NCBI GenBank assembly: GCA_017626145.1
Contig: JAGAJK010000086.1
Coordinates: 1-57,429 of the forward strand
Source of the DNA: Clostridia bacterium
GTDB taxonomy: Bacteria > Bacillota > Clostridia > RGIG6154
DNA: 57,429 bases
Direction: 5' to 3'
In this document: positions 33,468-49,355 of the stretch, piece by piece
How the letters are laid out: each line of letters starts with the position of its first letter
Position numbering within the stretch: the first letter of the stretch is position 1
Notes under the pieces: generated by a model
What the model saw: only the letters and a program-made list of their open reading frames with translations
Told to the model about the DNA's origin: nothing
Databases searched by the model: none
Position numbers and translations under genes: made by a program

Positions 33468-34781
33468 ATGAACAGAAAAGTATATTTAACTATTGACGAT
33501 TTCAAAAAACAAAATAAGGAATTGGGAACAAATCTTCCATTTTCGGAAAACACAGATGTTCTCAAGAAGAGCTTAAGTATAGGTTCAAAAACTGCCCAAA
33601 ACCGACTTGCGTGTCAGGCTATGGAGGGATGCGACGGAACCTTTGACGGAAAACCCGATGAGCTTACTAAAAGACGTTATGAACGTTTTTCAAAAGGCGG
33701 AGCTTCAGTTATATGGTTTGAAGCAACTGCTGTTATGGAAGAAGGCAGAGCCAATCCAAGACAATTATTTATTAATGAAAATAATATTGATGCTTTTAAA
33801 AAGCAGGTCGAAGATATAAAAGAAACTGCATTGAAGACAAACGGTTTTGAACCAGTTGTTATTATGCAGGCAACTCATTCGGGAAGATACAGTAAACCTC
33901 AAGGTAAGCCCGCTCCGTTAATTGCATACAACAACCCGATTTTTGAAAAGAACTCCCCTGTTTCTCCAGACAGAATTGTAACCGATAAATACCTTGACAA
34001 GGTTAAAGAAGCTTTAATTTCAGGTTCACTTCTTGCACAAAAAGCAGGATTTGACGGTGTTGACATTAAATGCTGTCACCGTTACCTCAACTCTGAACTG
34101 CTTTCTGCATACAACAGAGATGGGCGTTATGGTGGAAGTCTTGAAAATAGAACAAGACTTTTGAGAGAAAGTGTTAAAGGTGCAATTGAGGTTAGTAACA
34201 AAGACTTTTTGGTTTCTTCAAGACTTAACGTATATGACGGCTTTGTTTATCCTTATGGTTTCGGTGTTTCTCCCGATAAAGGAACAGATATGGACTTAAC
34301 AGAAGCTAAATGGCTTATTAACGAGCTTTATAAATACGGTGTACGTGTATTAAATATCACTATGGGTAATCCATATTTTAATCCACATGTCAACAGACCC
34401 TTTGCTCTTGGCGGCTACGTTGCCGATGAGCATCCTTTAGAGGGCGTTAAAAGAGTTTTAGATGGTACTGCTGAAATTAAAGATGCAGTACCTGATATGA
34501 AATTAATTTGCTCTGCTGTATCATATCTTGGAGTTGCAGCCCCCAATGTCGTTGCCTCTTATATAGAGAATAACAAATTTGATATTGCAGGCTTTGGAAG
34601 AACAGTATTTGCATATCCCGATTTTGCAAATGACATTATAAACACCGGTAAAATGAATAAAGACAAATGCTGTATCTGTTGCTCAAAATGCACCGAAATT
34701 ATGCGCTCCGGCTCAACTCCGGGATGTGTTATAAGAGACAAAGAAATTTATGGTGAGCTTTATAAAAAAATATTCAGTTAA
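33468..34781 (+). CDS. Old yellow enzyme with [4Fe-4S] motif (NADH:flavin oxidoreductase)
   Basis: 437 residues. The OYE TIM barrel shows MQATHSGRYSKPQG, AGFDGVDIKCCHRYLNSELLSAYNRDGRYGGSLENR (read in parts) and IAGFGRTVFAYPDFAN. The C-terminal CICCSKC...C motif (C-x2-C-x2-C-x11-C) matches the cluster site of trimethylamine dehydrogenase/2,4-dienoyl-CoA reductase-type members. The second FAD/NAD domain of those enzymes is absent, so electrons must come from a partner. The likely chemistry is reduction of an activated C=C bond. It is the first gene of the operon. ATG 33468 has a CAGGAG site. Confidence 0.88.
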   Translation: MNRKVYLTIDDFKKQNKELGTNLPFSENTDVLKKSLSIGSKTAQNRLACQAMEGCDGTFDGKPDELTKRRYERFSKGGASVIWFEATAVMEEGRANPRQLFINENNIDAFKKQVEDIKETALKTNGFEPVVIMQATHSGRYSKPQGKPAPLIAYNNPIFEKNSPVSPDRIVTDKYLDKVKEALISGSLLAQKAGFDGVDIKCCHRYLNSELLSAYNRDGRYGGSLENRTRLLRESVKGAIEVSNKDFLVSSRLNVYDGFVYPYGFGVSPDKGTDMDLTEAKWLINELYKYGVRVLNITMGNPYFNPHVNRPFALGGYVADEHPLEGVKRVLDGTAEIKDAVPDMKLICSAVSYLGVAAPNVVASYIENNKFDIAGFGRTVFAYPDFANDIINTGKMNKDKCCICCSKCTEIMRSGSTPGCVIRDKEIYGELYKKIFS

Positions 34782-34793
34782 GGAGCATTTACT

Positions 34794-36578
34794 ATGTTTT
34801 TAAAATGGATGAAAGAAAACAATTTCAGAGATGTTAATTTCGATACACCTTTAATGCCAAAAGCTTGTGACAGGGATTTCTGGGATAAACGTAATAACGC
34901 ACAGTTAATTGAACGTGCCGAAAAGTATATTGATTTCTCATGGCCTTCAATTCCTGTTTCAACATTTATCGCTTTTCAAAGAGAAGGAAACAGAATGAAA
35001 CACGAAATTCCGTATTTTGAAAGACGAAAGGCTTTAACTTCTCTGGTCATTGGTGAAATTTTAGAACATAAAGGAAGATTTATACCTCAAATCGTCAACG
35101 GAATTTATGTAATATGCGAAGAAACTTACTGGGGATTATCTGCACACATAAAATTCTGTGACCAAACACCGCTTATACCTTCACCGGAATTTCCCAATAT
35201 TGATTTATTTGCCGCAGAAACTGCAGCTACACTTGCTCTTACTTATCATCTTCTTTACGAAGAAATTAAAGACTACTGCTCACCTATTTTAGAAAGAATA
35301 GAATATGAATTAAATAATAAAACAATTAAACCATATCTTAATCTTAAAAAATTTTTCTGGATGGGATACCACGGAAGATCAGTTAATAACTGGAATCCCT
35401 GGATTATTTCAAATCTGCTTACTGTATTCCTTATAATTAAAAAGGAAGAAGACTTTTATGCAGGTCTTGAAAAAATGTTTACAGAGATTAATAACTATTA
35501 TGTATCTGCTCTTGATGACGGTGGCTGCGATGAAGGAGCATCTTATTGGGTAAAAGCCGGCGGTATGTTATTCAATTTCTGTGATAATCTTTACATAGCA
35601 ACCAACGGAAGAATAAACTTTTTCAACGATGAAAAAATCAAAAGAATTTCAGAATATATTCCAAACACTTATATTGGGAACGGTTACATAACAAATTTTG
35701 CAGACGGTTCAGTAAAAGTAACGAGAGGAATAGAAAGTCTTATTTACAGATTTGGAAAGAGAACATCCAACAAAAGACTATGTGCATTTGCAGGGTTAAT
35801 TAAACAGAATGAAACAATTGAATCATCGGATTTATATACGATGCTTTGTGATGTTATATATAAAAACGAAATCTCTGACACAGAGAAATACAATCCTCTC
35901 GATGAATATATTTATCCAAAGTTGCAGGTGTCATTTGCTAATACCGATAATTGGTTTTATGCTGCAAAAGGTGGTCATAACAGTGAATCACATAATCACA
36001 ACGATATAGGAAGTTTTATTGTATATTACAACAACTCCCCTGTTTTAATTGACCCGGGCTGCGGAACTTATACAAAGCAGACCTTTTCTGAAGAAAGATA
36101 CAAAATATGGACTATGCAGTCAGGCTGGCATAATCTTCCTGTTGTGAATAAATTGGAACAGTACAACGGTGAAGAATACAGAGCCACATCTTTCACACTT
36201 AAGAACAAAACAACAAATATAAGTTTTGCTGATGCTTACCCGAAAGAAGCAAAAATACTGAACTTAAACAGAAGCATTATCCAGAAAAACACCGGGATTG
36301 AAATCACCGATAAGTTTGAATTTGAAAATCTTAACAATACTGTTGAAGAGCATTTTATAACCGCACTTACCACCTTTGTAAAAGAAAACAGAGTTTACAT
36401 CGGTGACGAATATATTCTTGAAACAAATAAAGATGCTGAAATCGTTTTAGACAACGTAGATTTTGACGGAGATAAAAAGCTTATCAAGATGTGGGGTTCT
36501 GAAAAATTAAACAGAATTTCGTTTAACTTTAAAACAGAAAAAGAATCAGAAATTACATTTACATTAAGGAGATTATAA
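34794..36578 (+). CDS. Cytosolic heparinase II/III-like polysaccharide lyase
   Basis: 594 residues with no signal peptide. An alpha/alpha-toroid N-terminal region includes GYHGRSVNNWNPWIISN and DDGGCDEGASYWVKAGG. The C-terminal heparinase II/III-like beta-sandwich has GGHNSESHNHNDIGSF followed by VLIDPGCGTYT, the usual metal/active-site block. Family members cleave uronate-containing glycans by beta-elimination (PL12/PL15/PL17/PL21 types) or act on oligosaccharides. The cytosolic location suggests an oligosaccharide substrate. ATG 34794 follows AAGGAG. Confidence 0.85.
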   Translation: MFLKWMKENNFRDVNFDTPLMPKACDRDFWDKRNNAQLIERAEKYIDFSWPSIPVSTFIAFQREGNRMKHEIPYFERRKALTSLVIGEILEHKGRFIPQIVNGIYVICEETYWGLSAHIKFCDQTPLIPSPEFPNIDLFAAETAATLALTYHLLYEEIKDYCSPILERIEYELNNKTIKPYLNLKKFFWMGYHGRSVNNWNPWIISNLLTVFLIIKKEEDFYAGLEKMFTEINNYYVSALDDGGCDEGASYWVKAGGMLFNFCDNLYIATNGRINFFNDEKIKRISEYIPNTYIGNGYITNFADGSVKVTRGIESLIYRFGKRTSNKRLCAFAGLIKQNETIESSDLYTMLCDVIYKNEISDTEKYNPLDEYIYPKLQVSFANTDNWFYAAKGGHNSESHNHNDIGSFIVYYNNSPVLIDPGCGTYTKQTFSEERYKIWTMQSGWHNLPVVNKLEQYNGEEYRATSFTLKNKTTNISFADAYPKEAKILNLNRSIIQKNTGIEITDKFEFENLNNTVEEHFITALTTFVKENRVYIGDEYILETNKDAEIVLDNVDFDGDKKLIKMWGSEKLNRISFNFKTEKESEITFTLRRL

Positions 36579-36579
36579 G

Positions 36580-37311
36580 ATGACAAAAGTAGCATTGGTT
36601 ACGGGTGTTGCAGGCGGCATTGGCTTTGCAACGGCACAGAAATTAATAAATGAAGGTATGGCGGTAGTCGGAATGGATGTTTTAGATACCATACCCAAAG
36701 TATTGAACGGTGAATTTACATACGTTAAAGGAGATTTAGCAGACTCACAAAGCCGTATGAATTTTGTTAATACAGCCATTGAAAAATACGGACGAATTGA
36801 CGCACTTATAAATGTTGCAGGAGTTGCTCCGAAGGTGCGTAACGATATCCTGGATATGACAGAAGACAGCTATGACTTTGTTATGAACATAAACACAAAA
36901 GGAACATTATTTTTAACACAGCTTGTTGCAAACAAAATGATTGAATTAAAATGTGGAACAGCAATCGTTAATATTTCATCAATGTCAGGATATACAAGTT
37001 CAACAAGCCGTGGTGAATACTGCATTTCAAAAGCAGGCGTTACGATGATAACAAAATTATTTGCAGACAGGCTTGCAGAATACGGCATAACGGTAAATGA
37101 AATAAGACCGGGTATTATTGCAACGGGTATGACAGATAAGGTGAAGGAAAAATATGATAATTTAATTGAAAACGGACTTCTTCCTATTAAAAGGTGGGGA
37201 CAACCTGAAGATATAGCAAAAGCAGTATGGTCCCTTGCCTGCGGTGAATTATCATACGTTACGGGTCAGTCACTTGATGTTGACGGCGGATTCCACATAA
37301 GGAGATTGTAA
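36580..37311 (+). CDS. Short-chain dehydrogenase/reductase
   Basis: 243 residues of classical SDR fold: TGVAGGIGFATAQ is the cofactor glycine motif, NVAGVAPK corresponds to NAG, and the catalytic Ser-Tyr-Lys is in NISSMSG and YCISKAG. The C-terminal GQSLDVDGGFHI is typical. Related enzymes oxidise sugar acids or 2-keto-3-deoxy sugar acids, for example fuconate or rhamnonate derivatives, but the substrate cannot be read from the sequence. It starts one base after the lyase stop and overlaps the next gene by one base. Confidence 0.9.
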   Translation: MTKVALVTGVAGGIGFATAQKLINEGMAVVGMDVLDTIPKVLNGEFTYVKGDLADSQSRMNFVNTAIEKYGRIDALINVAGVAPKVRNDILDMTEDSYDFVMNINTKGTLFLTQLVANKMIELKCGTAIVNISSMSGYTSSTSRGEYCISKAGVTMITKLFADRLAEYGITVNEIRPGIIATGMTDKVKEKYDNLIENGLLPIKRWGQPEDIAKAVWSLACGELSYVTGQSLDVDGGFHIRRL

Positions 37312-39215
37312 TGAAAACTTATACATATGACGTTATTGTAGTAGGAACAGGTGCCGCAGGATACAATGCTGCGTGCCGTATTAAAGAATTCGGCAAAAAA
37401 AGCATAGCAATTGTAACAGAAGGTATTAACACAGGAACTTCAAGAAACACAGGCAGCGATAAACAGACTTACTACAAATTAGGTCTTGGCGGCGACAGTC
37501 CTGACAGTGTTTACAATATGGCGGAAAATTTATTTGCAGGTGGAAGTGTTGACGGTGATAATGCACTTTGTGAAGCTGCATTATCCGTTCGTTCTTTTAT
37601 GCATTTATGCGAACTTGGTGTTGAATTTCCCGTAAACAGATATGGTGAGTATGTAGGTTATAAAACAGACCACGACCCATATGCAAGAGCTACAAGTGCC
37701 GGACCTCTTACCTCAAAATTTATGACAGAAGCTTTAGAGAAAAAGGCGCAAAGGCTTAATATTGAAATATATTCCGAGTTACTTGCTATTGAAGTCTTAA
37801 AATATGACGACAGGGTTTGCGGACTTTTGTGCCTTGAACAGTTAAGCGGTGAATTAATTGCATTTAAATGCGCAGACATAATACTTGCAACCGGCGGACC
37901 TGCAGGAATTTATGCCGATAGCGTATATCCAACCTGTCACACAGGCACAACAAGTCTTGCTCTTTGTGCAGGTAGCAAAGCACAGAATCTTACAGAATGG
38001 CAATACGGTCTTGCATCTGTTAATCCAAGATGGAACGTTTCAGGTACATATATGCAGGTACTTCCCCGTTTCGTTTCAATAGACAAAGACGGTAAAGAAT
38101 ATGAATTTCTCGACGATTATTTTAAAGATAAATACGAAGCTCTTTCTGCAGTATTTTTAAAAGGTTATCAATGGCCATTTGACAGTAAAAAAGTACTCGA
38201 GGGGTCTTCAATTATTGATATACTTGTTTACCGTGAATGTGTGTTAAAAAACAGAAGGGTTTACCTTGATTTTACAAAGAATCCTTTTTGTATGGAAACT
38301 ATTGATTTTAAAAAGCTTTCGGATGAAGCGTTCGAATATTTAAATAAAGCTGAAGCTTGTTTCGGAACACCGATAGAAAGACTTTTGAAAATGAACACGC
38401 CTGCAGTTGAGCTTTACAAATCAAAAGGTGTTGACATAACAGAAGAATATCTCGAAATAGCACTTTGCGCACAGCATAATAATGGAGGAATTGCCGTTGA
38501 TATGTGGTGGCAGACATCGGTTAAAGGTCTTTTTGCCGTGGGTGAATGTGCCGGAACACACGGTGTGACAAGACCGGGTGGAAGTGCACTTAACGCAGGT
38601 CAGGTAGGCTCACTTCGTGCTTCTCAATATGTTTCTGAAAATGGCAATGCACAAATAAACGATAATGAGTTTAACTCTATAGTTGAAAAAGTTGAAAAAG
38701 CTTATAACGATACATTTGATATTTTATGCAAAAAAGAGTATAATGCAGATAAGCTTATTGAAAAAGCACAAAGAAGAATGAGTAATTTTGCTTCCGCTAT
38801 AAGAAACAAAGAAAAAATGGTTGGTGCCTTATCTGAAACCGTAAATGATTTAGAAAATCTGCTTTTAGTTGCAGGTGTGGGAAATAAAAGCAAATTATAT
38901 ATTTACTTTAAACTTAAAGATATTCTTATAACTCAGATTGCTTGTTTAAATGCTATGATAGATTATGCGGATACAGCAGGTGATACAAGAGGATCTTCAC
39001 TTTATTTTGACAAACGAGGTAGTTTAAGAGACGGTTTAGAAGAAATGTTCAGATTCTGTGAAGAAAATCTTAATAACAGAACAAAAGTTCAGGAAGTTCA
39101 GTTAATTGACGGTAGGTTCAAAACATCGTGGCGAGATGTCCGTCCCATTCCCGACAATGATGATTTCTTTGAAAACATCTGGAGAAGCTACAGAGAAAAT
39201 AAAAATATTTATTAA
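37311..39215 (+). CDS. Fumarate-reductase/aspartate-oxidase-type flavoprotein
   Basis: 634 residues. The FAD-binding motif VIVVGTGAAGYNAACRI is at the N-terminus, with IILATGGPAGIYADSV in the middle and GLFAVGECAGTHGVTRPGGSALNAGQVG as the family C-terminal flavin block. A helical C-terminal domain (about residues 450-634) resembles the succinate dehydrogenase/fumarate reductase and AprA type. No Fe-S partner subunit or membrane anchor gene is adjacent, so the redox partner is unclear. It may reduce or dehydrogenate a pathway acid. The start overlaps the SDR stop (TAATG). Confidence 0.88.
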   Translation: MKTYTYDVIVVGTGAAGYNAACRIKEFGKKSIAIVTEGINTGTSRNTGSDKQTYYKLGLGGDSPDSVYNMAENLFAGGSVDGDNALCEAALSVRSFMHLCELGVEFPVNRYGEYVGYKTDHDPYARATSAGPLTSKFMTEALEKKAQRLNIEIYSELLAIEVLKYDDRVCGLLCLEQLSGELIAFKCADIILATGGPAGIYADSVYPTCHTGTTSLALCAGSKAQNLTEWQYGLASVNPRWNVSGTYMQVLPRFVSIDKDGKEYEFLDDYFKDKYEALSAVFLKGYQWPFDSKKVLEGSSIIDILVYRECVLKNRRVYLDFTKNPFCMETIDFKKLSDEAFEYLNKAEACFGTPIERLLKMNTPAVELYKSKGVDITEEYLEIALCAQHNNGGIAVDMWWQTSVKGLFAVGECAGTHGVTRPGGSALNAGQVGSLRASQYVSENGNAQINDNEFNSIVEKVEKAYNDTFDILCKKEYNADKLIEKAQRRMSNFASAIRNKEKMVGALSETVNDLENLLLVAGVGNKSKLYIYFKLKDILITQIACLNAMIDYADTAGDTRGSSLYFDKRGSLRDGLEEMFRFCEENLNNRTKVQEVQLIDGRFKTSWRDVRPIPDNDDFFENIWRSYRENKNIY

Positions 39216-39225
39216 GGTGATATAA

Positions 39226-39972
39226 ATGAAAACTTATAAACAAGGTCTTGTTTCCATTTCTTTTAGAGATAAAACGCCTTTGGAAATCCTGATTGCTATG
39301 AAAAAATGTAACCTCAATTATATTGAATGGGGCAGCGATGTTCACGCTCCATGTAATGACAAAGAAAATCTTGAAAATATAAAAAAGCTTCAGGACGAAT
39401 TTAACATAATATGTTCTTCCTACGGCACTTACTTTCGTTTGGGAGTTAACGATACAAAAGAACTTCCCGACTACATAAATGCGGCAAAAAATTTAGGAAC
39501 AGATATTTTAAGGCTGTGGTGTGGAAATAAAGGCTCTGAAGAATATACAAACGACGAGAAAAACATTTTATTCGAGGAATGTAAAAAAGCATCAAGGATA
39601 GCTGAAAAGCATAATGTCAAGCTATGTATGGAATGCCACAACAATACGTATACGGACACAAAAGAGGGAGCGTTCGAACTTATGGAATATGTAAATTCTC
39701 CTGCATTTCGTATGTACTGGCAACCAAATCAGTTTAAAACATTTGATGAAAATATATCTTATGCAAAACTTCTCTCCCTTTATACAGAACATATACACGT
39801 GTTTAACTGGGATGGGAAAAATAAATATCCACTTAATAATGCAATTGATACATGGAAAACATATCTTTCATGTTTCGGTGAAGATAAAACTCTTCTTCTC
39901 GAATTTATGCCCGACGATAAAATCGAAAGCTTAAAAACAGAAGCAGACTCATTATTTAAAATTACAGAATAG
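39226..39972 (+). CDS. Sugar phosphate isomerase/epimerase-family TIM barrel (pathway copy)
   Basis: 248 residues, shorter than the copy at 18830. Metal-site-like residues are in YIEWGSDVHAPC, KLCMECHNN, YWQPNQF, HIHVFNW and LLLEFMPDD. Members include inosose dehydratases, hydroxypyruvate isomerases and, in recently described bacterial systems, partner subunits or lyases acting on 3-keto glycosides. It lies 11 bases before a Gfo/Idh oxidoreductase gene, a pairing seen in 3-keto-sugar and C-deglycosylation systems. That functional reading is inference. Confidence 0.83.
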   Translation: MKTYKQGLVSISFRDKTPLEILIAMKKCNLNYIEWGSDVHAPCNDKENLENIKKLQDEFNIICSSYGTYFRLGVNDTKELPDYINAAKNLGTDILRLWCGNKGSEEYTNDEKNILFEECKKASRIAEKHNVKLCMECHNNTYTDTKEGAFELMEYVNSPAFRMYWQPNQFKTFDENISYAKLLSLYTEHIHVFNWDGKNKYPLNNAIDTWKTYLSCFGEDKTLLLEFMPDDKIESLKTEADSLFKITE

Positions 39973-39983
39973 GGTTTTAGAAT

Positions 39984-40913
39984 ATGAAAATATGTTTTAT
40001 AGGAAGCTGTGGCCACACATATCGGACATTCGAGGAAATGAAGCTTTGTAATGAGGCTGAATTTGTCGGAATTGCACCGGGCAGTGAACACGAAAATACA
40101 GAAGATTTTAAAAAATATAATATCAAGGTATATAACAGCTATATTAAAATGCTTGAAATTGAAGCTCCGGATATTGCAGTTATCTCACCTGTTTTTGGAT
40201 ATACAGGAAAAATTATCAAAGAATGTGCGAAACGAAAAATTGATATTTTCTCTGAAAAACTGATAGCTTCAAATCCAAAAGAACTAAATGAAGTTAAAGA
40301 CTGCATAACTGCAAATAATATTCATTTTTCGGCAATGCATTTTCTACGGTTTACACCATCATTTTATCAAGCAAAAAAAGCTATTGAAAATGGCACCATT
40401 GGCGAAATCAAGCTTATTACAGCTCAAAAAAGCTACAAATACGGCAAAAGACCTGAATGGTATAACGATAGAAATTTATATCCGGGAACCATTCCCTGGG
40501 TTGGTATTCACGCAATTGACTGGATTTATTTCTTCACCAAAAAAGATTTCAAAAGTGTTACCGCATTGGATTTCGGAAATCCTGCCAAATACGCACTTTG
40601 TCAATTTGAACTTGAAGATGAAATAATAGCATCGGTTAACATTGACTTTTTAAGGCATATAAATGCCCCCTCTCACGGTGATGACCGTATAAGAATTGCA
40701 GGCACAGACGGAGTAATAGAGGTTTTTGAAGACAAATATGTTTTAATAAATAAAGACGGTATAAAAGAATGTTTTCAAGGGGAGTCACCAAAGCTTGCAC
40801 TTGATTTTCTTTACAATAAGGAAGAATTAACCAAAGAAGAAATTTTTATGCTGACAGAAATTGCTTTAAAAACACAGCTTTCAGCAGACAGAAAAGAAAG
40901 AATCTATTTATAA
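39984..40913 (+). CDS. Gfo/Idh/MocA-family oxidoreductase
   Basis: 309 residues, somewhat shorter than the usual 330-390. The N-terminal Rossmann domain has FIGSCGHTYR and DIFSEKLIAS, corresponding to the EKP motif with Leu replacing Pro. The C-terminal alpha/beta domain shows TIPWVGIHAIDWIYFF with the conserved His. NAD(P)-dependent oxidation or reduction of a sugar, probably at a ring carbon, is expected. It is coupled with the neighbouring isomerase-like gene, which supports a keto-sugar step. Confidence 0.87.
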   Translation: MKICFIGSCGHTYRTFEEMKLCNEAEFVGIAPGSEHENTEDFKKYNIKVYNSYIKMLEIEAPDIAVISPVFGYTGKIIKECAKRKIDIFSEKLIASNPKELNEVKDCITANNIHFSAMHFLRFTPSFYQAKKAIENGTIGEIKLITAQKSYKYGKRPEWYNDRNLYPGTIPWVGIHAIDWIYFFTKKDFKSVTALDFGNPAKYALCQFELEDEIIASVNIDFLRHINAPSHGDDRIRIAGTDGVIEVFEDKYVLINKDGIKECFQGESPKLALDFLYNKEELTKEEIFMLTEIALKTQLSADRKERIYL

Positions 40914-40923
40914 GGAGTAACTT

Positions 40924-41925
40924 ATGAAATCAATATTTATATGCAATAATGAGCCTGTTTTCCATACGGTTTATACATCTGAAATGATTGATACTTTAAA
41001 GGAAGAAGCAAATATCGACAGCAAGATTTACTCTTACAATGATATCATAACATCAAATGGAAAATTTAATGATACAGAATATTTATTTTCCACCTGGGGA
41101 ATGCCTGCATTTACAGAAGATGAGATAAAAAAACACTTCCCTTCTCTTAAATGCGTATTCTACGGAGCGGGAACCGTTCAGCAATTTGCAAGACCGTTTT
41201 TAAACTGCGGTGTTAAAGTGTTCAGCGCCTGGGCAGCAAATGCCGTTCCCGTTGCAGAATATACCGTAGCACAGATAATTCTTGCAAATAAAAGCTTTTT
41301 TGTTTCTTCAAGACTTTTTAAATCTGAAGGTCATAGAAATGCAAAAGTTAAATTCAAGGAGTTTCCCGGAAATTACTGCAACAAAATCGGTTTAATCGGT
41401 GCAGGAATGATAGGAAAGCTTGTAATTAAGCTTCTTAAAAATTATAAATTTGACGTTCTCGTTTTCGATCCGTTCCTACCCGATGAAACAGCTTTTGAGC
41501 TTGGTGTAACAAAAACAACTCTTAATGAAATATTTTCAAAATGCAGTGTTATTTCAAACCATCTTGCAAATAACGAGCAAACACAGGGAATGCTTAATTA
41601 CAGCCACTTTTCAAAGGTTGGTAAAAATGCCACCTTTATAAACACCGGAAGAGGTGCACAGGTTGTTGAAAAGGATTTAATAAGAGCATTAAAAGAAAGA
41701 CCTGATTTTACTGCTATTTTAGACGTTACAATGCCTGAGCCACCTGAATATGGCTGTGAATTTTATTCTCTTGACAACTGTATTTTAACACCTCATATAG
41801 CAGGCTCAAGCGGTGATGAATGTCACAGACTTGCAGAGTATATGTTAGAAGAATTTCGTCTTTATACAAAAAGCAAACCTACTAATTACGAGGTTACTAT
41901 GAAAATGCTTGAAACAATGGCATAA
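40924..41925 (+). CDS. D-2-hydroxyacid dehydrogenase-family protein
   Basis: 333 residues. The NAD-binding motif is IGLIGAGMIGKLV (about residues 157-169). The catalytic triad is Arg in INTGRGAQV, Glu in DVTMPEPPEYG and His in LTPHIAGSSG. It resembles phosphoglycerate/glyoxylate-reductase-type members. In the pathway it could interconvert a 2-keto and a 2-hydroxy acid. ATG 40924 follows AAGGAG. The propeller lyase gene follows after 16 bases. Confidence 0.9.
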   Translation: MKSIFICNNEPVFHTVYTSEMIDTLKEEANIDSKIYSYNDIITSNGKFNDTEYLFSTWGMPAFTEDEIKKHFPSLKCVFYGAGTVQQFARPFLNCGVKVFSAWAANAVPVAEYTVAQIILANKSFFVSSRLFKSEGHRNAKVKFKEFPGNYCNKIGLIGAGMIGKLVIKLLKNYKFDVLVFDPFLPDETAFELGVTKTTLNEIFSKCSVISNHLANNEQTQGMLNYSHFSKVGKNATFINTGRGAQVVEKDLIRALKERPDFTAILDVTMPEPPEYGCEFYSLDNCILTPHIAGSSGDECHRLAEYMLEEFRLYTKSKPTNYEVTMKMLETMA

Positions 41926-41941
41926 ACAGGAGATAAAAATT

Positions 41942-43240
41942 ATGATTAATATATCAAAATCAAAGGAAATAAGAATTAAACGAGGTAACACAGACTGGTG
42001 GATAAATGAAAAATCCATGGTGGGTATAAACGGAAAAACATATATTACATATGTAACTGATATGGGTGAAATTCACGTAAAGGAACTGGATGCAAAGTGT
42101 TCAAAAAGCATTAGTCGAGATGTTTGCCTGTGCCGTATAAACTGTGATTTTTCCGATGAACATAATGCACCGTCAATATGCGTAATGGATAGTGGGAAAA
42201 TTATTATAGCTTATACGGGACATAATGTTAAAGGTGTACGCTACAAAGTTACCAAAAATCCTTTTGATATTATGTCCTTCGGTCCGGAACAGATTTTAGA
42301 ATATGATGGGACTGTTACATATGCACAGCTTTCAGAAAACACTTACAAAAACGAATTGTGGTTATTTACACGCGTTAACAGTGTTACCTGGGAATTTCGC
42401 TATTCCTCCGATGAGGGAATCACCTGGAGCAAGCCGCATACATTTTTAAAATCCGATGCAGGTGGTTTGTTTTATCTTGATGTAAGAAAGCAATACAGAG
42501 TTCACAATCATCGTACACCTCAGGAACAATGGTTTTTCGCTCTTTACGGACATCCAAAAGTTTCAGCAGATCATACAATAAGAAGTGCTTATTTTAATAA
42601 CGACGGCCAGCTTTTGCTACCTGACGATACTCCTCTTTCGGTTAATCTTTATGACGAAAATACGTTAATGGATCTTGATACCCTTTCCGTTGTTTACGAA
42701 TCACCACAGGGAACTACTGTAAGATTATTGTCTGTATGTCCAACTATGCCTTACAGAGTAGGGCTTGCATCATTTGAACTGGATAAACCGGAAACAATTG
42801 TTTATTATTCGTCCACATTCAAAGACGGTAAGTGGGTGCTTTCACAACCTATTGCAAAGGCAGGAGCATTTTTGTCAGATGTTCAGACGGACGGTTCACA
42901 AACCTATGTACCCGGCATGAGTTATTACTACGGTGTGGGTGAAGCCGGAATACATGAAATGCACGGCGGTATTTCGGAAACAAACAGAATTTTCCTTGCC
43001 CGTAAAGGTGAAAATTCATGGCTACTTGAAAGCTATCTTTCTAAGGATTGTGGTAGCACGTATACCCGCGAACAGATTATAAAAGAAATTCCTTTATCGG
43101 AAAACAAAAAAATATGGAGACCAATTGTCCCCATTTATGCACAGGATAATCTTCCTGTTTACTGGCACGAAGGTACTTATACTGCCCATACCGGCGGATG
43201 GCACTGTGATACGGTTATGTATGTTGAATATGACGATTGA
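41942..43240 (+). CDS. BNR beta-propeller protein, probable PL24/PL25-like lyase
   Basis: About 432 residues from ATG 41942 (CAGGAGAT site), with no signal peptide. The BNR_4-type seven-bladed propeller includes FRYSSDEGITWSK as an Asp-box-like motif. His74 (DEHNAPSIC) and His94 (YTGHN) are 20 residues apart, the spacing I recall for the catalytic His pair of PL25 ulvan lyases. An Arg (WEFRYS) and a Tyr (ALYGHP) lie near the other expected positions. Ulvan and rhamnosyl-glucuronate lyases use this fold. Here the protein would be cytosolic, which is unusual. Assignment to a numbered PL family is tentative. Confidence 0.75.
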   Translation: MINISKSKEIRIKRGNTDWWINEKSMVGINGKTYITYVTDMGEIHVKELDAKCSKSISRDVCLCRINCDFSDEHNAPSICVMDSGKIIIAYTGHNVKGVRYKVTKNPFDIMSFGPEQILEYDGTVTYAQLSENTYKNELWLFTRVNSVTWEFRYSSDEGITWSKPHTFLKSDAGGLFYLDVRKQYRVHNHRTPQEQWFFALYGHPKVSADHTIRSAYFNNDGQLLLPDDTPLSVNLYDENTLMDLDTLSVVYESPQGTTVRLLSVCPTMPYRVGLASFELDKPETIVYYSSTFKDGKWVLSQPIAKAGAFLSDVQTDGSQTYVPGMSYYYGVGEAGIHEMHGGISETNRIFLARKGENSWLLESYLSKDCGSTYTREQIIKEIPLSENKKIWRPIVPIYAQDNLPVYWHEGTYTAHTGGWHCDTVMYVEYDD

Positions 43241-43276
43241 AACAACAGACGGTGTAAAGTTACACCGTCTGCTGTT
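43241..43276. terminator. Bidirectional terminator between the convergent operons
   Basis: CAGACGGTGTAA (43246-43257) pairs perfectly with TTACACCGTCTG (43260-43271) around a 2-base loop, with an A tract on one side and a T tract on the other. It overlaps the last codons of the activase gene. Confidence 0.88.
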
Positions 43277-44183
43277 TTATTATCCCGGTACACAATACTT
43301 CTTTAACACCCGATTCTTTAGCTATATCCAAGAGCTTATCTGCAATATCTGATGTAATTAAAGGAGTATCTTTCAGTTCCCAGGTTTTATTAAGTTTTTC
43401 GTATTTACTTATACAGGAATTATTAAATGCACATAATTCCCAACGTTCAACTTCATTTGCGATATTTTCCTTTATAAAATCCGAAATATCTCTGATTACA
43501 TTTTCATCTGCAGTAAACGTTGGTATAATGGGAGTTCTTATCCACAATCTTTTACCTTTTATATTTTTGACGTTTTCAAGTATTATGCCGTTATCTACGC
43601 CTGTCCACTTTTTATGTAATGCGCTATCAATAACCTTTAAATCATATAGCACAACATCGGTATATTCAAGTATTTCATTTACTACGACTTGGCTACAAAA
43701 CCCGCTTGTATCAAGAGCGGTGCTTACACCTTCTGTTTTCATAATTCTGAAAAATTCTTTTGTAAATTCGGCATGGTGTGTTGCCTCTCCTCCTGAAACA
43801 GTTACCCCACCACCTGAAATATCAAAATATTCCTTATCCTTCAGAATTTCTTTTGCTAAAGCTTCAGGTGTGAATTCTTCTGCTATTTTCGTTATAGCTT
43901 TCGCAGGACAGTATTCAACACATTCAAAACACCTCCTGCATAAAGAGTTTACGAAAACCCCATCAGAAGTCAGATTGATTGCACCGTTTTTACAGGCTTT
44001 TATACACTCACCGCAACCGATACACAGCTTTTTGTCATACCAGATACTATTGGAAAAATCAATACCTTCAGGGTTATGACACCATTTACATTCAAGGGGA
44101 CAACCCTTAAAAAAAACGGTATCTCTAGTTCCTGGTCCATCGTGAGTAGTACCTTTATAAATATCAAATATCAAAGCTTTCAT
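43260..44183 (-). CDS. Glycyl radical enzyme activating enzyme (radical SAM)
   Basis: 307 residues. The radical-SAM motif CPLECKWC (C-x3-C-x2-C) is at about residues 28-35. An inserted ferredoxin-type region carries two [4Fe-4S] sites (CIGCGECIKAC and CRRCFECVEYC), typical of activases of the non-PFL dehydratase/decarboxylase group. It abstracts hydrogen from the glycine of its partner. The partner glycyl radical enzyme is two genes upstream in the same operon, with an AraC gene between. The start ATG 44183 overlaps the AraC coding end. Confidence 0.94.
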   Translation of the reverse strand: MKALIFDIYKGTTHDGPGTRDTVFFKGCPLECKWCHNPEGIDFSNSIWYDKKLCIGCGECIKACKNGAINLTSDGVFVNSLCRRCFECVEYCPAKAITKIAEEFTPEALAKEILKDKEYFDISGGGVTVSGGEATHHAEFTKEFFRIMKTEGVSTALDTSGFCSQVVVNEILEYTDVVLYDLKVIDSALHKKWTGVDNGIILENVKNIKGKRLWIRTPIIPTFTADENVIRDISDFIKENIANEVERWELCAFNNSCISKYEKLNKTWELKDTPLITSDIADKLLDIAKESGVKEVLCTGIIKQQTV

Positions 44184-45012
44184 TATATTTTCCCTTTTTA
44201 CGCATTTCTTTGGGTGTCATTGCGTACTTTTCTAAAAAAATTTTATTAAACCAGGACAGACTGTAAAATCCTGCTTCGTTACACAGTTGGGTAATACTTT
44301 TATTACCGCTTACAAGCTGCGATGCTACAAATGCCAGTCTGATATCATTTATAAATCCGGTAACTGTTATATCAAGGTATTTTCTCATACACCTTGATAT
44401 ATATTCACGGCTCTTACCTGTTATTTCACACATTCGTTCCGTGCCGATGAAAAAATTCTCTTGCTCTTTCATTTGTTCGCACATATCGTCAAACCATTTC
44501 GGAATATCTTTTTCCAGCTTCTTTTCCTTTAAAAACTTTGTGAGCATTTCAAAAATAAGAATTCTTGTATACATCACATCATTTTTATCACCGTTACTAA
44601 TTCTCTTCATTTTACGAACCAGGCTGATTGTTTCCGCCTCCGTAAGCAAAATACAGTTATCCTTTATATTATCAACTGCGGCCTTTGATAAACACAGATA
44701 ATCTAAAAGATTTTCCATAATCTGCTTTGAAAAGCTGAGATTGATAATATCGTTATCCTTACATTTTTCGTACATAATGCCATGTATATCGCTTGGTTTT
44801 ATAAATACAAAGCTACCTCTGTCAAGTTCTTCAACTCTTCCGTTTATGTAATGAACTACAGGATTAAGAGTAAGAAAAAACTCGTAAAACTCGTGCTCGT
44901 GAAACCGGCTTTTTCTGTTTCTGCCGTTCACATACAAACAAAGATAACCTGTTGTTTCATCGATATTGCCATTTTCATATAAATGCTCTATTTCAAAATT
45001 AAAATTCTTCAT
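44164..45012 (-). CDS. AraC-family regulator inside the glycyl radical operon
   Basis: 282 residues. The N-terminal cupin-like sensor (FHEHEFYEFFLTLNPVVHYINGR) is followed by the C-terminal AraC DNA-binding domain (MCEITGKSREYISRCMRKYL and SITQLCNEAGFYSLSWFNKIF). It is encoded between the glycyl radical enzyme and its activase and overlaps the activase start by 20 bases. It probably regulates this operon or the convergent one in response to a sugar or acid. Start is ATG 45012. Confidence 0.9.
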   Translation of the reverse strand: MKNFNFEIEHLYENGNIDETTGYLCLYVNGRNRKSRFHEHEFYEFFLTLNPVVHYINGRVEELDRGSFVFIKPSDIHGIMYEKCKDNDIINLSFSKQIMENLLDYLCLSKAAVDNIKDNCILLTEAETISLVRKMKRISNGDKNDVMYTRILIFEMLTKFLKEKKLEKDIPKWFDDMCEQMKEQENFFIGTERMCEITGKSREYISRCMRKYLDITVTGFINDIRLAFVASQLVSGNKSITQLCNEAGFYSLSWFNKIFLEKYAMTPKEMRKKGKYNESFDI

Positions 45013-47269
45013 AATTGTTCCTGCTTACAAACTCCTCCTGAAAGCTTTTTGAAAGAGTTACAAATCTTGAAGTATACCCTGTTACTTTTACAATAATATT
45101 CTGATAATCAGGATTATCAGGGTGATTTATTGCATCCTTAAGCTTTTCAAGGTCCATAATGTTCAAATTAATCTGAACACCGTTTTTTCTGAAATATGCC
45201 TTGGAAAAGTCTTCAACATATTTATAAATGTCTTCTTTACCGTCAAAAAATTTTGGCTGAAGTTCAATTTGTAATGAGCCACCGAGGAATTTTTTATTAT
45301 CTACCTTGGCACAGGAATTTGCTGTTGCAAGTAACCCTTTCGTATTTCTTCCTGCTGTCGGATTACAGCCGTGAGCAAGGGGCTCGGAAGCATATCTTCC
45401 GTCAGGAGTTGCTCCTATTATTTGCGACGCTGTATGCCCCTGAAACTGGAAAAGACTTGCTCTGTACTGCTGACCACGGTTGTTGGTTGTATTATCCATA
45501 ACCTTTGCTATACTTTCTGTGATTCTTACATACATAGCATCAACATCATCGTAATCGTTTCCGTACTTATGTTCGTTCAAAAATCTTTGTCTCATTACTT
45601 CATTATTTGCCCAGTTTTTCTTTACTGCATCACGCACTGCTTCCAAAGTGTACATTTTCTTATCGTAAACAAGGTTCTTTATAGCAAAGAATGAATCGCA
45701 CACATTGGGAATTCCAAGAATATTTGTAGAGGTGAACTGATAATCAACACCACGGTGGTCGGTTATATCAAGACCTCTTTCTATAGTTGTATGACAGTTG
45801 AGAGATGTTACAATTTCAGGCCATATGTCAGCAATAACATCGTACTGTGCGTCCTTAAATACTCTTAAGGCTTCTGTTGTATTAACGATTTCTTTTTCAA
45901 AGTATTCATATAATTCTTCAAAGGATGAAATATCATCAAGGATTGCCGCATCAATAGCTCTGAACATACAATCGGTAAGAACTACGGCATTGGTATCCTG
46001 GTCACAGTATTCTTTGCCCGGAATACAGTACCACTGACAACCGCTGTAGCATACGTTTGCAGCATCCTCTTCAGTAACTCCCGAACGAAGCTCTGTTTTA
46101 TAAATAACATCATAATTCACAAGTGACGGTATACCTGCACCGTGTCTTGCCAGAACATCACAAACGTATGAATAGAATTCTTTATTCATATCCTCGTGCC
46201 ACATTACACCAAGGTTATTATAATCATCAATCATATCATAAGCTTCCATAACCACAAAGCTTACTTCGTTAGTTGCGTCGTTGCCATTTTTATCACGCCC
46301 ACCGAGACTGAAAAACTGACCTCTTAATTTTAAAAACATTTCAGCAAGATAATCACGGGCTTCACTTCTTGTAAGAGTGCCATCTTTTATATCCTTTTCA
46401 TAAAGCTTAATTAAATATTCGTCAATTTTTCCGTAGCCGTTTCCATGACCTACAATTCTGTCTGTCATTACGGCAAAATTAAGCCACTGAACGCCCTCAT
46501 AAAAGCTTGAGGGTGGATTCATACTTATATTTGCACAGGCTTTTGATATTTTCAGATATCTTTCCTTCTGCCCGCTATTAGTTTCACTCTCATATAATTC
46601 AAAAGCACGTTCACTGTATTTCTTTATATAAGAAATTATTGCTTCACAGGCGTATTTAGCTCCCTTTAAAAACGTAACTTTCTTTATATTTTCAAGTTCT
46701 TCGTATTTTTTTAAACTTTTGTTTATTCTGTCTAAAATACCTCCCCACCCTTGTGTTAAACCAATGTTATAGTCAGGACAGGTATGACCGTGGCTGTTAC
46801 CTCCGGCACCTAATTCACGTGCTTTTTTGCCAAGCATCTTTACGTGCTGACCGAAATCATAAGGCCTTACTTCGTTCATTTCCCAGTGAAATTCACCGAC
46901 TATTGTTTCATTTTCATAAATTTCAGCAGGACTGTTGTCCATTAAAAATTTAAAGTCCTTTCCCCAGCTTTCGGCATTAGCTTTATATCCTTCAAGTTTT
47001 GACGGCATTTTATCAAGATAAGGAAATGCCTTTCCGCAATCTACACGACAACCGTGATCACCAAGACTGAGACCTTCAAATTTATGCTCACCGCTTCTTG
47101 GTGCTATAGCGTTTCCTGCATCTGACCAATGATAAACAAGCTGTGTTTCGTTAGCAGTATATAAGTTTCTTTTACCGCTTATTGCAAGTTCTCTGCTTCT
47201 CTGACGTAGCTTTTCAATTCTTTCGCTGATTTCAAATTTTGACTCTGCTTTAAGTTTAATACTTTCCAT
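44999..47269 (-). CDS. Glycyl radical enzyme of unassigned class
   Basis: About 756 residues from ATG 47269 (AAGGAG site). The C-terminal radical site is VKVTGYTSRFVTL, with the glycine at about residue 731. The GHTCPDY block seen in dehydratase-type members is present (about residue 161). The active-site cysteine region reads NVCYSGCQWYC (Cys about 411): Trp replaces the Glu two residues after the Cys that marks glycerol, choline, hydroxyproline and similar lyases, and it is not the Cys-Cys of pyruvate formate-lyase. The reaction is therefore unknown. The activase is encoded downstream. Oxygen-sensitive chemistry fits a strict anaerobe. Confidence 0.92.
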   Translation of the reverse strand: MESIKLKAESKFEISERIEKLRQRSRELAISGKRNLYTANETQLVYHWSDAGNAIAPRSGEHKFEGLSLGDHGCRVDCGKAFPYLDKMPSKLEGYKANAESWGKDFKFLMDNSPAEIYENETIVGEFHWEMNEVRPYDFGQHVKMLGKKARELGAGGNSHGHTCPDYNIGLTQGWGGILDRINKSLKKYEELENIKKVTFLKGAKYACEAIISYIKKYSERAFELYESETNSGQKERYLKISKACANISMNPPSSFYEGVQWLNFAVMTDRIVGHGNGYGKIDEYLIKLYEKDIKDGTLTRSEARDYLAEMFLKLRGQFFSLGGRDKNGNDATNEVSFVVMEAYDMIDDYNNLGVMWHEDMNKEFYSYVCDVLARHGAGIPSLVNYDVIYKTELRSGVTEEDAANVCYSGCQWYCIPGKEYCDQDTNAVVLTDCMFRAIDAAILDDISSFEELYEYFEKEIVNTTEALRVFKDAQYDVIADIWPEIVTSLNCHTTIERGLDITDHRGVDYQFTSTNILGIPNVCDSFFAIKNLVYDKKMYTLEAVRDAVKKNWANNEVMRQRFLNEHKYGNDYDDVDAMYVRITESIAKVMDNTTNNRGQQYRASLFQFQGHTASQIIGATPDGRYASEPLAHGCNPTAGRNTKGLLATANSCAKVDNKKFLGGSLQIELQPKFFDGKEDIYKYVEDFSKAYFRKNGVQINLNIMDLEKLKDAINHPDNPDYQNIIVKVTGYTSRFVTLSKSFQEEFVSRNNYEEF

Positions 47270-47282
47270 AACTATTCTCTCC

Positions 47283-49355
47283 TTAGAATCTGTCAAAAAA
47301 TATCAATTCGGGGTCTATCTCACTTTTTATATAACATTCATCACAAAGCTTCTGCCACTTTTTCGTAATTGGAAGCTTATTTTTTTCTTTCATATCTTCT
47401 GCAAAATTATCCCCTACATATTCGAAAAATGAAATATACAAATCATCATACTTGAAGATTGAATAATTCCTTATATTGTACAAATGTCCGTTTTTAACTA
47501 TCTGATCCCATATTTCATTATGAAGCTTTATGTATTCTTCTTCCTTTTCAGGTTTTATTTTAGTTACAACACAATGAGGCTCGGTTTTATTTACAATGTA
47601 TTTATTTTTAATATCGTTTAATTTGCCGTTAAGCAAAACTCTGTCGTTTTCAAAATGGATTTGTGTATCTGTATATACTATACTTTTATGATTCCTTATA
47701 TCTTCCCTTTTTCTTTCCTCAAGCTTATAACAGGTTGCATATATAACATCTGCATTTATACAAGAAAAGATATCATTATCAAATTCCACAAAATCCTGCA
47801 TAACATACTCACCACGGTCGGAAAAATCAAAAATAACACTTACATTTTCCTTACTTTGGATTATATTATTCTGCCATTTTATAGAGTCTGATTCAGTAAA
47901 TTTCAATGAAATATCTTTTCCATTCATAAAAATATTGTTTTTGAAAAGTATATTTTGGGCAATATGTGTATGTATGGGCACCACTACGTCAACAGAAAGG
48001 TTTCCGTCTGCAATACAGTTATCACTTAATTCGTCAAAATAAATTGCATATGCTTTCTCAGTTTCGGGAACAGAAGTTATATAATTGCCCTCAACAACAG
48101 TTTTATCACCTCTTGAACAGTAAATTGCCGCACCGTCGCAAAGACGTGTCATACATCTTGTTATCTTATTAAATCTTATTATATGAGGACCGCCGTTACA
48201 GGTAATACCGCAATAAGGAATATTATCTATGGTATTATACTCAATTACAGTCTGTCCTTTTTCTTCTTTTTTACCATCAAGAACATAAACAAGTAATGAT
48301 TTACCGCCTGCGTGAATAGCAATAGCAGAAAAATCGAACATTCCTATATCTGAAATTTCGTTATGACTAATATTTTCATTTTCACACTCATTGGTTACTA
48401 TACCGCAAGATGCACACTTTGATATGATACAGTTCGTTATTTCAATGTTCTTTGACTTTAAGGCTTTAATTCCCTGACCACCCGAAAAAGAAACCTCAAG
48501 CATATCAAGTTTGATATGCTCCGAGTTTTCAATCTGAACTGCTCCGGAAGGATTTACGGCACGAAGTCCCGCTATAATTCCGCATTCGGAATTCGAAACA
48601 TAAACAGATAAATTCTCTACGCACACATCTGTTGAATTAATAATTCTGATTACTGAATGACTTACAGGTATAATAGCTTTTATATTACTTTCATCTTCTC
48701 CGTCTTCGGGCAAATAATAGATTTTACACTCTTTTCTGTTATAACACCATGTACCTTTTTCTTTTAATCCGTACATGGTATTTAAAAACTGATACTGATG
48801 TTTATCAAAAGCACCCGACGGGTGTGCCATGGGTGATGAAGTTGTAATAACGCCCGTAACATCATCATAATCTTTAACAGAAACAGTAGATTCGTCCCAA
48901 ACATGTATTGCACGTATATCGCAGTTTAATATATCAAGTTCCTTTGGAATATCTTCTTTATTTATCGTAATATGTGTAAGCTCATCATATTCAGGAGCTC
49001 TGTTCCAGCCGCCGTTTCTTGAATTCATCCATTTAAGCTCGGTTTTATCCAGACATTCAAAATATTCGTTGCAAGGATATGAAGAACGGGATTTTACTGC
49101 AGAATTCACAACAAAAACTCTCGGTTCAACATCAGTTTCAAAGGTAAGATATTCTCCTTCTCTTTTGAAATTGTCAGCCACAATTCCACCAATTATTTTT
49201 GCTCCGTTTTGTGACATAAGCTTAACATTTTTGCATCCGTCAATACAAATCGGTTCCGTTACGGTTATATCGTTTTCTATGTTAATTATAATATCATTTT
49301 TAAGCTGTTTTAATATGTCGTTAATCTCTTTTTGGGTTGTTACATTATAAATCAT
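47283..49355 (-). CDS. Right-handed beta-helix protein fused to L-rhamnose mutarotase domain
   Basis: 690 residues without a signal peptide. Residues 1 to about 570 are a parallel beta-helix resembling GH141-like proteins (SSYPCNEYFECLDKTELKW, then coils such as IEITNCIISKCASCGIVTN and TVVEGNYITSV). Residues about 592-690 align with the RhaM/DUF718 mutarotase: IKPEKEEEYIKLHNEIWDQI matches the RhaM active region, including the catalytic His (His612 here), and WQKLCDECY and the ELIFF end also correspond. The first gene of the glycyl radical operon. The fusion implies a rhamnose-like product released by the helix domain. Confidence 0.85.
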   Translation of the reverse strand: MIYNVTTQKEINDILKQLKNDIIINIENDITVTEPICIDGCKNVKLMSQNGAKIIGGIVADNFKREGEYLTFETDVEPRVFVVNSAVKSRSSYPCNEYFECLDKTELKWMNSRNGGWNRAPEYDELTHITINKEDIPKELDILNCDIRAIHVWDESTVSVKDYDDVTGVITTSSPMAHPSGAFDKHQYQFLNTMYGLKEKGTWCYNRKECKIYYLPEDGEDESNIKAIIPVSHSVIRIINSTDVCVENLSVYVSNSECGIIAGLRAVNPSGAVQIENSEHIKLDMLEVSFSGGQGIKALKSKNIEITNCIISKCASCGIVTNECENENISHNEISDIGMFDFSAIAIHAGGKSLLVYVLDGKKEEKGQTVIEYNTIDNIPYCGITCNGGPHIIRFNKITRCMTRLCDGAAIYCSRGDKTVVEGNYITSVPETEKAYAIYFDELSDNCIADGNLSVDVVVPIHTHIAQNILFKNNIFMNGKDISLKFTESDSIKWQNNIIQSKENVSVIFDFSDRGEYVMQDFVEFDNDIFSCINADVIYATCYKLEERKREDIRNHKSIVYTDTQIHFENDRVLLNGKLNDIKNKYIVNKTEPHCVVTKIKPEKEEEYIKLHNEIWDQIVKNGHLYNIRNYSIFKYDDLYISFFEYVGDNFAEDMKEKNKLPITKKWQKLCDECYIKSEIDPELIFFDRF

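Follow-up and report, generated by a model that had tools for sequence, protein, structure and literature searches.

Positions 47283–49355 (minus strand) of the window, by which we mean the whole 57,429-nucleotide stretch of DNA from a gut-type Clostridia bacterium analysed here, encode a 690-aa protein that joins a beta-helix to a C-terminal PF05336 domain. Judged by sequence and predicted fold, the tail is of the L-fucose-mutarotase type rather than the L-rhamnose type, and the helix is a GH141-like glycosidase in which the positions of the two catalytic Asp residues are conserved. The gene opens an operon whose second gene encodes a glycyl radical enzyme (GRE), and the mutarotase clade to which the tail belongs tracks this GRE across genomes rather than the glycosidase. 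The reading that we favour, at a probability of roughly 0.6, is that a cytosolic glycosidase–mutarotase supplies one anomer of a fucose-like sugar to the GRE pathway. The features on which this account draws are as follows.

47739..49355, minus strand: GH141-like right-handed beta-helix glycosidase domain, residues 1–539, without signal peptide (PF13229, GH141 profile, fold)
48135..48137, minus strand: Asp407 in the motif CDGAAIY, aligned with BT_1002 catalytic Asp523 (HMMER alignment; invariant in five homologues)
48033..48035, minus strand: Asp441 in the motif YFDE, aligned with BT_1002 catalytic Asp564 (HMMER alignment; invariant in five homologues)
47583..47738, minus strand: linker, residues 540–591, homologous to the stretch preceding the RhaM domain in the SGNH–RhaM protein of locus L043
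47283..47582, minus strand: L-fucose-mutarotase-type PF05336 domain, residues 592–690 and the stop codon (Pfam, phmmer, fold, tree)
47520..47522, minus strand: His612, at the E. coli RhaM His22 position (alignment)
47352..47354, minus strand: Gln668, at the Trp77 position (alignment and tree)
44999..47269, minus strand: GRE (PF02901, E 1.8e-94; PF01228, E 8.1e-18)
44164..45012, minus strand: AraC-family regulator, overlapping the GRE gene by 14 nt (PF12833, E 2e-14)
43260..44183, minus strand: GRE-activating radical SAM enzyme, overlapping the AraC gene by 20 nt (TIGR02494, 280.7 bits against a cut-off of 174.35)

Two domains in one frame

The PF05336 (rhaM) match expected from a first-pass annotation of this DNA is significant, covering residues 594–675 with E 1.5e-16 and 60.9 bits (cut-off 23.4). 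In the same protein PF13229 (Beta_helix) is found with E 1.8e-16. Since both exceed their curated cut-offs, the two-domain observation stands far beyond chance. Residue 592 falls at window position 47582, so the interval marked in the first-pass annotation is exactly the RhaM domain. The last 100 residues do match RhaM, as had been claimed, but not over its whole length: the tail covers profile positions 2–82 of 105. The catalytic His placed in an LHNEIW context is there, as H612. In the full-length AlphaFold2 model (pLDDT 77.9) the pLDDT drops to about 30–37 across most of residues 531–591, which include the linker.

How unusual is such an arrangement? RhaM had been described as normally a stand-alone protein, and nearly all PF05336 matches in 391 Clostridia genomes indeed lie in open frames of about 104–190 aa. 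Four others lie in frames of 231–369 aa, and the window protein (a 699-aa frame) is the longest. A survey of the architecture, proposed in the first-pass annotation, gave a divided answer: no second beta-helix–mutarotase fusion was found in 99, 398 and 391 genomes, but the domain is fused to other hydrolases, as set out below. The fusion is thus seen in one genome only, a fragmented assembly. A literature search confined largely to non-subscription journals found no paper on a mutarotase–glycosidase fusion or a mutarotase-linked GRE. The pairing of a GH141-like domain with a fucose-type mutarotase is a variant on known families.

The tail is of the fucose type

If the tail is a sugar mutarotase, which sugar do its relatives point to? 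Against TIGR02625, the equivalog model for YiiL/RhaM (L-rhamnose mutarotase), it scores 24.8 bits with a cut-off of 99.6, and the stand-alone GRE-linked mutarotases likewise fall below this cut-off. The best of its PDB sequence matches (phmmer) is 7byu (E 7.6e-11), ahead of 2qlx (0.0045) and 1x8d (0.031). Of these structures 7byu is an L-fucose mutarotase, and 2qlx and 1x8d, like 2qlw, are L-rhamnose mutarotases. Modelled alone with AlphaFold2, the tail is predicted to be a confident domain fold (pLDDT 88.4). Its best match is again 7byu, both by Foldseek (E 4e-8, TM 0.80, 1.7 Å, 31% identity over 90 columns) and by VIA (Z 13.8, 2.0 Å over 99 residues); the next VIA matches are 1x8d (Z 11.6) and 2qlw (Z 11.4). 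The fold comparison with E. coli RhaM suggested earlier therefore held for the superfamily, but 1x8d came second to 7byu. The monomer model fits the subunit fold of the dimeric alpha/beta-barrel found in 7byu, 1x8d and 2qlw. The tail has a RhaM match and does not turn out to be an unrelated barrel of this kind.

A maximum-likelihood tree places the tail inside a clade with 7byu and with members linked to FucI or GH29 (99/96), and the classical RhaM branch separate from it (100/99). Stand-alone relatives of the tail directly adjoin L-fucose isomerase in loci L036, L037 and L038, and a GH29 alpha-L-fucosidase gene in L033. For this tail the family name of PF05336 is misleading.

What has become of the sugar pocket? 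In E. coli RhaM (1x8d) the His22, Tyr18, Tyr41 and Trp76 positions are catalytic and Trp77 contacts the substrate. By alignment, Y18/H22/W26/Y41/W76 are kept in the tail as Y608/H612/W616/Y631/W667. The Trp77 position, occupied by Trp in L-rhamnose- and L-fucose-type members, is Gln or Lys in every GRE-linked member. Since the Trp–Trp pair of the pocket is replaced by Trp–Gln, we call the tail ‘fucose-type’ and not FucM proper. Its C-terminal part is shorter than in stand-alone relatives, yet still ends in the ELIFFDRF strand. With this short C-terminus and Gln at the Trp77 position, its specificity may differ from L-fucose. The Acidovorax avenae L-fucose mutarotase (7byu/7byw, PF05336) has the same fold and catalytic positions, but it is a stand-alone protein with Trp–Trp at 76–77 and a longer C-terminus. 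E. coli RhaM/YiiL and Rhizobium RhaU (1x8d, 2qlw) have the superfamily fold, His22, Tyr18 and Trp76 in common with the tail, but show lower similarity and occupy the other branch of the tree; the tail scores far under their equivalog cut-off.

The beta-helix is GH141-like

To what family does the other domain belong? A profile of five homologues matched BT_1002 of family GH141 (5mqp) in the PDB with E 5.5e-28; the sole other match had E 2.5e-15. BT_1002 also provided the top four Foldseek matches of the full-length model (best 5mqp, E 3.9e-18), with 7byu further down for the tail. VIA aligned the model with 5mqp at Z 33.4 and 2.6 Å over 446 residues; the VIA ranking of the whole model was dominated by generic beta-helices and was left out of the family assignment. 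With the GH141 insertion domain PF21231 the protein scores 14.1 bits against 27, although its alignment with 5mqp spans those 446 residues. BT_1002, a fucosidase of rhamnogalacturonan-II degradation, has the aligned helix and both aspartates in common with the window protein, but at an identity of only 14–18%, and it lacks a mutarotase domain; the window protein also differs from it in having no signal peptide. Its catalytic aspartates are D523 and D564 (PMC10154630; PMC12786026). In our alignment the pair takes chain positions 528 and 569. Chain index and published numbers both space the two residues 41 apart, from which we infer an offset of five.

The GH141 enzymes characterised so far are a fucosidase of pectin degradation, endo-fucanases and a xylanase (PMC10154630, PMC12786026, PMC5593877); their substrates are fucosylated pectin, fucoidan or xylan, and transglycosylation has raised the suspicion of a retaining mechanism (PMC12786026). 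Because a xylanase is among them, membership of the family does not fix the sugar. No signal peptide was found in the fusion protein, whose N-terminus is not hydrophobic (maximum KD15 0.71); its expected substrates are therefore oligosaccharides that have been imported.

The operon and its glycyl radical enzyme

The operon runs from the fusion gene through the GRE and the AraC-family regulator to the GRE activase. The likely ATG of the GRE lies at 47269, 13 nt past the stop of the fusion gene and with a GGAGAG ribosome-binding site (the mechanical open frame begins at TTG 47296). The regulator scores 112 bits with the ChbR model, below its cut-off. No sugar transporter was seen in the operon, and promoter-like sites near it show no excess over shuffles.

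What kind of GRE is this? The PFL-like domain, the glycyl loop VTGYTSRF and the activase are all present. Like diol dehydratase (5i2a), CutC and HypD, the enzyme has the GRE domains, the active-site Cys, the glycyl loop and a cognate activase. However, its Cys loop reads GCQW(Y/F) where characterised dehydratases read GCVE, so that Trp replaces Glu, and it scores far below the cut-off with every NCBIfam functional-class (equivalog) model. By these sequence marks it belongs to an uncharacterised GCQW subfamily, with members in loci L042–L068 and a spread over Bacillota, Bacteroidota, Chloroflexota and Lentisphaerae-type genomes. Gut bacteria have many glycyl radical enzymes without known function (PMC11574389).

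Elsewhere the host genome carries FucI, RhaA, five GH29-like genes and another mutarotase. With fucose isomerase, rhamnose isomerase and a further mutarotase to hand, plain L-fucose would not need this operon, whose sugar may instead be a modified form of fucose or one related to it.

The end of the GRE operon is separated by 20 bp from that of a convergent gene cluster (33468–43240, plus strand), and a hairpin of 11 pairs lies at 43246–43271. The cluster encodes an FMN oxidoreductase, a heparinase II/III-like protein, an SDR, an FAD oxidoreductase, a xylose-isomerase-like protein, a Gfo/Idh/MocA protein, a 2-hydroxyacid dehydrogenase and a BNR_4 protein.

The mutarotase clade follows the GRE

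Does the mutarotase keep company with the glycosidase or with the GRE? A search of genome contigs with the fused protein returned no relatives, and the 27 named loci were therefore reached through the GRE. Seven of them (L042, L043, L044, L045, L051, L067 and L068) encode a GRE at least 59% identical to that of the window, and in five of the seven a mutarotase of the clade lies near it. It stands alone directly upstream of the GRE in L042 and L044, is fused to an SGNH/GDSL esterase within the GRE operon in L043, and in L051 and L068, where it was found by six-frame search, stands alone and divergent at 1–3 kb from the GRE. As for the remaining two, the L045 contig ends just past the neighbouring gene, and a clade mutarotase lies elsewhere in that genome, near the end of another contig (L120); a mutarotase in the L067 genome (L116) belongs to the ordinary fucose type. 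A rough chance estimate, from 32 mutarotase matches in about 57 Mb of GRE-bearing genomes and 0.41 Mb of loci, gives 0.2 expected against the five observed; L042 and L044 are close relatives, so these amount to no more than four independent cases. The GRE-linked mutarotases form a clade of their own (97/90) within the fucose-type clade. Mostly stand-alone proteins of about 105 residues, they all keep the Tyr18, His22 and Trp76 positions, with Tyr or Phe at 41. Neither the GRE as operon partner nor this association figured in the first-pass reading. We conclude that the GRE encoded by the next gene is the real partner of the mutarotase and probably uses the released sugar.

What might that sugar be? 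RbsD-family pyranase genes lie near the GRE in L042 and L051, and GalM in L042 and L044. L042 (2529–9988) groups RhaM-type, RbsD-type and GalM genes around the GRE and adds a split transketolase and an SftI-like isomerase; L044 shares GalM, the isomerase and the split transketolase, without RbsD. In three more distant Bacteroidota loci, whose GRE is about 47–48% identical (L056, L060, L061), GH29 lies near the GRE, joined by GH95 in L056. Mutarotase or pyranase neighbours and GH29 or GH95 neighbours together argue that the GRE pathway handles a sugar, for which a fucose-like configuration is the best-supported guess. TRAP transporter genes near the GRE in L045, L051 and L068, a ribokinase in L045 and L051, and the polar Gln or Lys in the mutarotase pocket also led us to consider a role for the GRE in uronic-acid decarboxylation, which is speculation.

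The SftI-like isomerase and split transketolase of L042 and L044 had brought the sulfoquinovose pathway into consideration. It was rejected because the isomerase, at 105, falls short of its cut-off of 700 and because the GRE does not belong to the sulfopropanediol type.

Origin of the fusion

How did the two domains come together? Locus L043, from the Lachnospiraceae isolate RGIG4233, has the linker, the tail and the type of GRE operon in common with the window, but there the tail is carried by an esterase and the beta-helix is a separate gene.

L043 13867–15345, plus strand: SGNH/GDSL esterase with a C-terminal GRE-linked mutarotase, 492 aa, in the GRE operon

Residues 3–539 of the window protein are 51% identical to the free-standing L043 beta-helix, and residues 543–690 are 64% identical to the last 148 residues of the L043 SGNH–RhaM protein; the two blocks of homology meet within four residues. 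This pattern implies that mutarotase and linker passed from one hydrolase to another within a single type of operon, and the window fusion is, on sequence homology, a domain swap. Fusion of fucose-type domains is recurrent. A 485-aa frame in L112, from a Bacteroidota genome that also carries the GRE, encodes a lipoprotein-like product in which a GHL6 glycosidase-type domain is joined to a C-terminal mutarotase of the fucose type that keeps Trp–Trp, and in L073 the domain is fused to an amidohydrolase. The kind of architecture thus recurs, and the particular pair in the window has been seen once.

Proposed mechanism and alternatives

A mutarotase-family tail that keeps its catalytic residues, attached to a glycosidase-type beta-helix, makes release followed by interconversion the best general reading of sequence and model. 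This much of the first-pass proposal survives; L-rhamnose as the sugar does not, given the equivalog score, the tree and 7byu, and the ‘similarly configured sugar’ offered there as an alternative came nearer the mark. In our scheme the GH141-like helix would cleave a fucose-configured residue from an imported oligosaccharide by means of Asp407 and Asp441. Candidate sugars are L-fucose itself and its close relatives, for example L-galactose or a substituted fucose. The sugar would leave the helix as one anomer, and the flexibly tethered mutarotase would interconvert the anomers, making available the form needed next. Trp667 and Gln668 would be part of the pocket in which His612 and Tyr608/Tyr631 work on the ring form. 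The mutarotase would serve the GRE pathway, with the next step performed by the GRE of the uncharacterised subfamily, and the GRE, or the enzyme after it, would take one anomer. The analysis itself establishes the family and fold of both domains, the conserved catalytic residues, the layout of the operon, the proximity of this mutarotase clade to this GRE subfamily and the junction of the domain swap; from these we infer both enzyme activities, which sugar and which anomer are involved, and the anomer specificity of the GRE or a later enzyme. More tentatively, the GCQW enzymes could make up a class not described before, whose radical chemistry takes place directly on one anomer of a free reducing sugar, fed by a dedicated PF05336 branch (Trp77 to Gln/Lys); in the window, release and anomer exchange would be fused and the radical step encoded in the same operon.

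Might the tail have ceased to be a general mutarotase? It could be a sugar-binding or dimerising module, or have another activity, and be passed among the enzymes of GRE operons to hold or orient the sugar. The change of Trp77 to Gln or Lys throughout the GRE-linked clade, the short C-terminus, and the presence of the same tail on two unrelated hydrolases (the L043 SGNH esterase and the window glycosidase) would suit such a module, and in the fold comparison dimeric alpha/beta-barrels of other function (NIPSNAP, monooxygenases, polyketide cyclases) come only a little behind. We nevertheless think it unlikely: the similarity in sequence is specifically to sugar mutarotases, every GRE-linked member keeps Tyr18, His22 and Trp76 (with Tyr or Phe at 41), and most are proteins of about 105 residues standing alone beside the GRE, an arrangement more in keeping with an enzyme than with a targeting tag.

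Two further accounts seem less probable still. The fusion could be an accident, an assembly error or a deletion joining two genes whose domains are functionally unlinked; its occurrence in one genome, its linker of predicted disorder and the close meeting of the homology blocks speak for this. But both parts belong to one operon type, and L043 encodes both around the same GRE; the frame is open throughout, with the GRE 13 nt later; and independent fusions join the domain to other hydrolases (SGNH in L043, the GHL6 glycosidase in L112, the amidohydrolase in L073). We regard an accident as very improbable. Least probable is the specific first-pass version, in which the beta-helix sets L-rhamnose free and the tail is an L-rhamnose mutarotase. 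PF05336 is named for that enzyme, RhaM structures are the next-best named enzymes by fold, and the host has RhaA. Yet the YiiL_rotase equivalog score is a quarter of its cut-off, the tree puts the tail outside the RhaM branch, the neighbours of its relatives are fucose genes, and the beta-helix has its best relative in a GH141 fucosidase rather than in a rhamnosidase.

Accounts of sugar catabolism often leave anomer specificity aside. On our favoured reading, a glycosidase equipped with a mutarotase would suggest that pathways can be limited by the spontaneous exchange between anomers. The mutarotase would also provide a testable handle on the uncharacterised GRE, suggesting that its substrate, or an intermediate of its pathway, is a free sugar. 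The mutarotase clade that follows the GRE is of more interest than the window fusion itself.

Three further observations concern these families. By eye, uroporphyrinogen-decarboxylase-like genes repeatedly adjoin the fucose-type mutarotase genes of L033 and L035–L038. In L071 (4391–5071, minus strand) a 226-aa protein has two weak RhaM-like stretches in tandem. The window itself encodes a second beta-helix protein (7731–9659, minus strand), with a signal-peptide-like N-terminus and a weak match to the GH141 insertion domain (E 0.00067).
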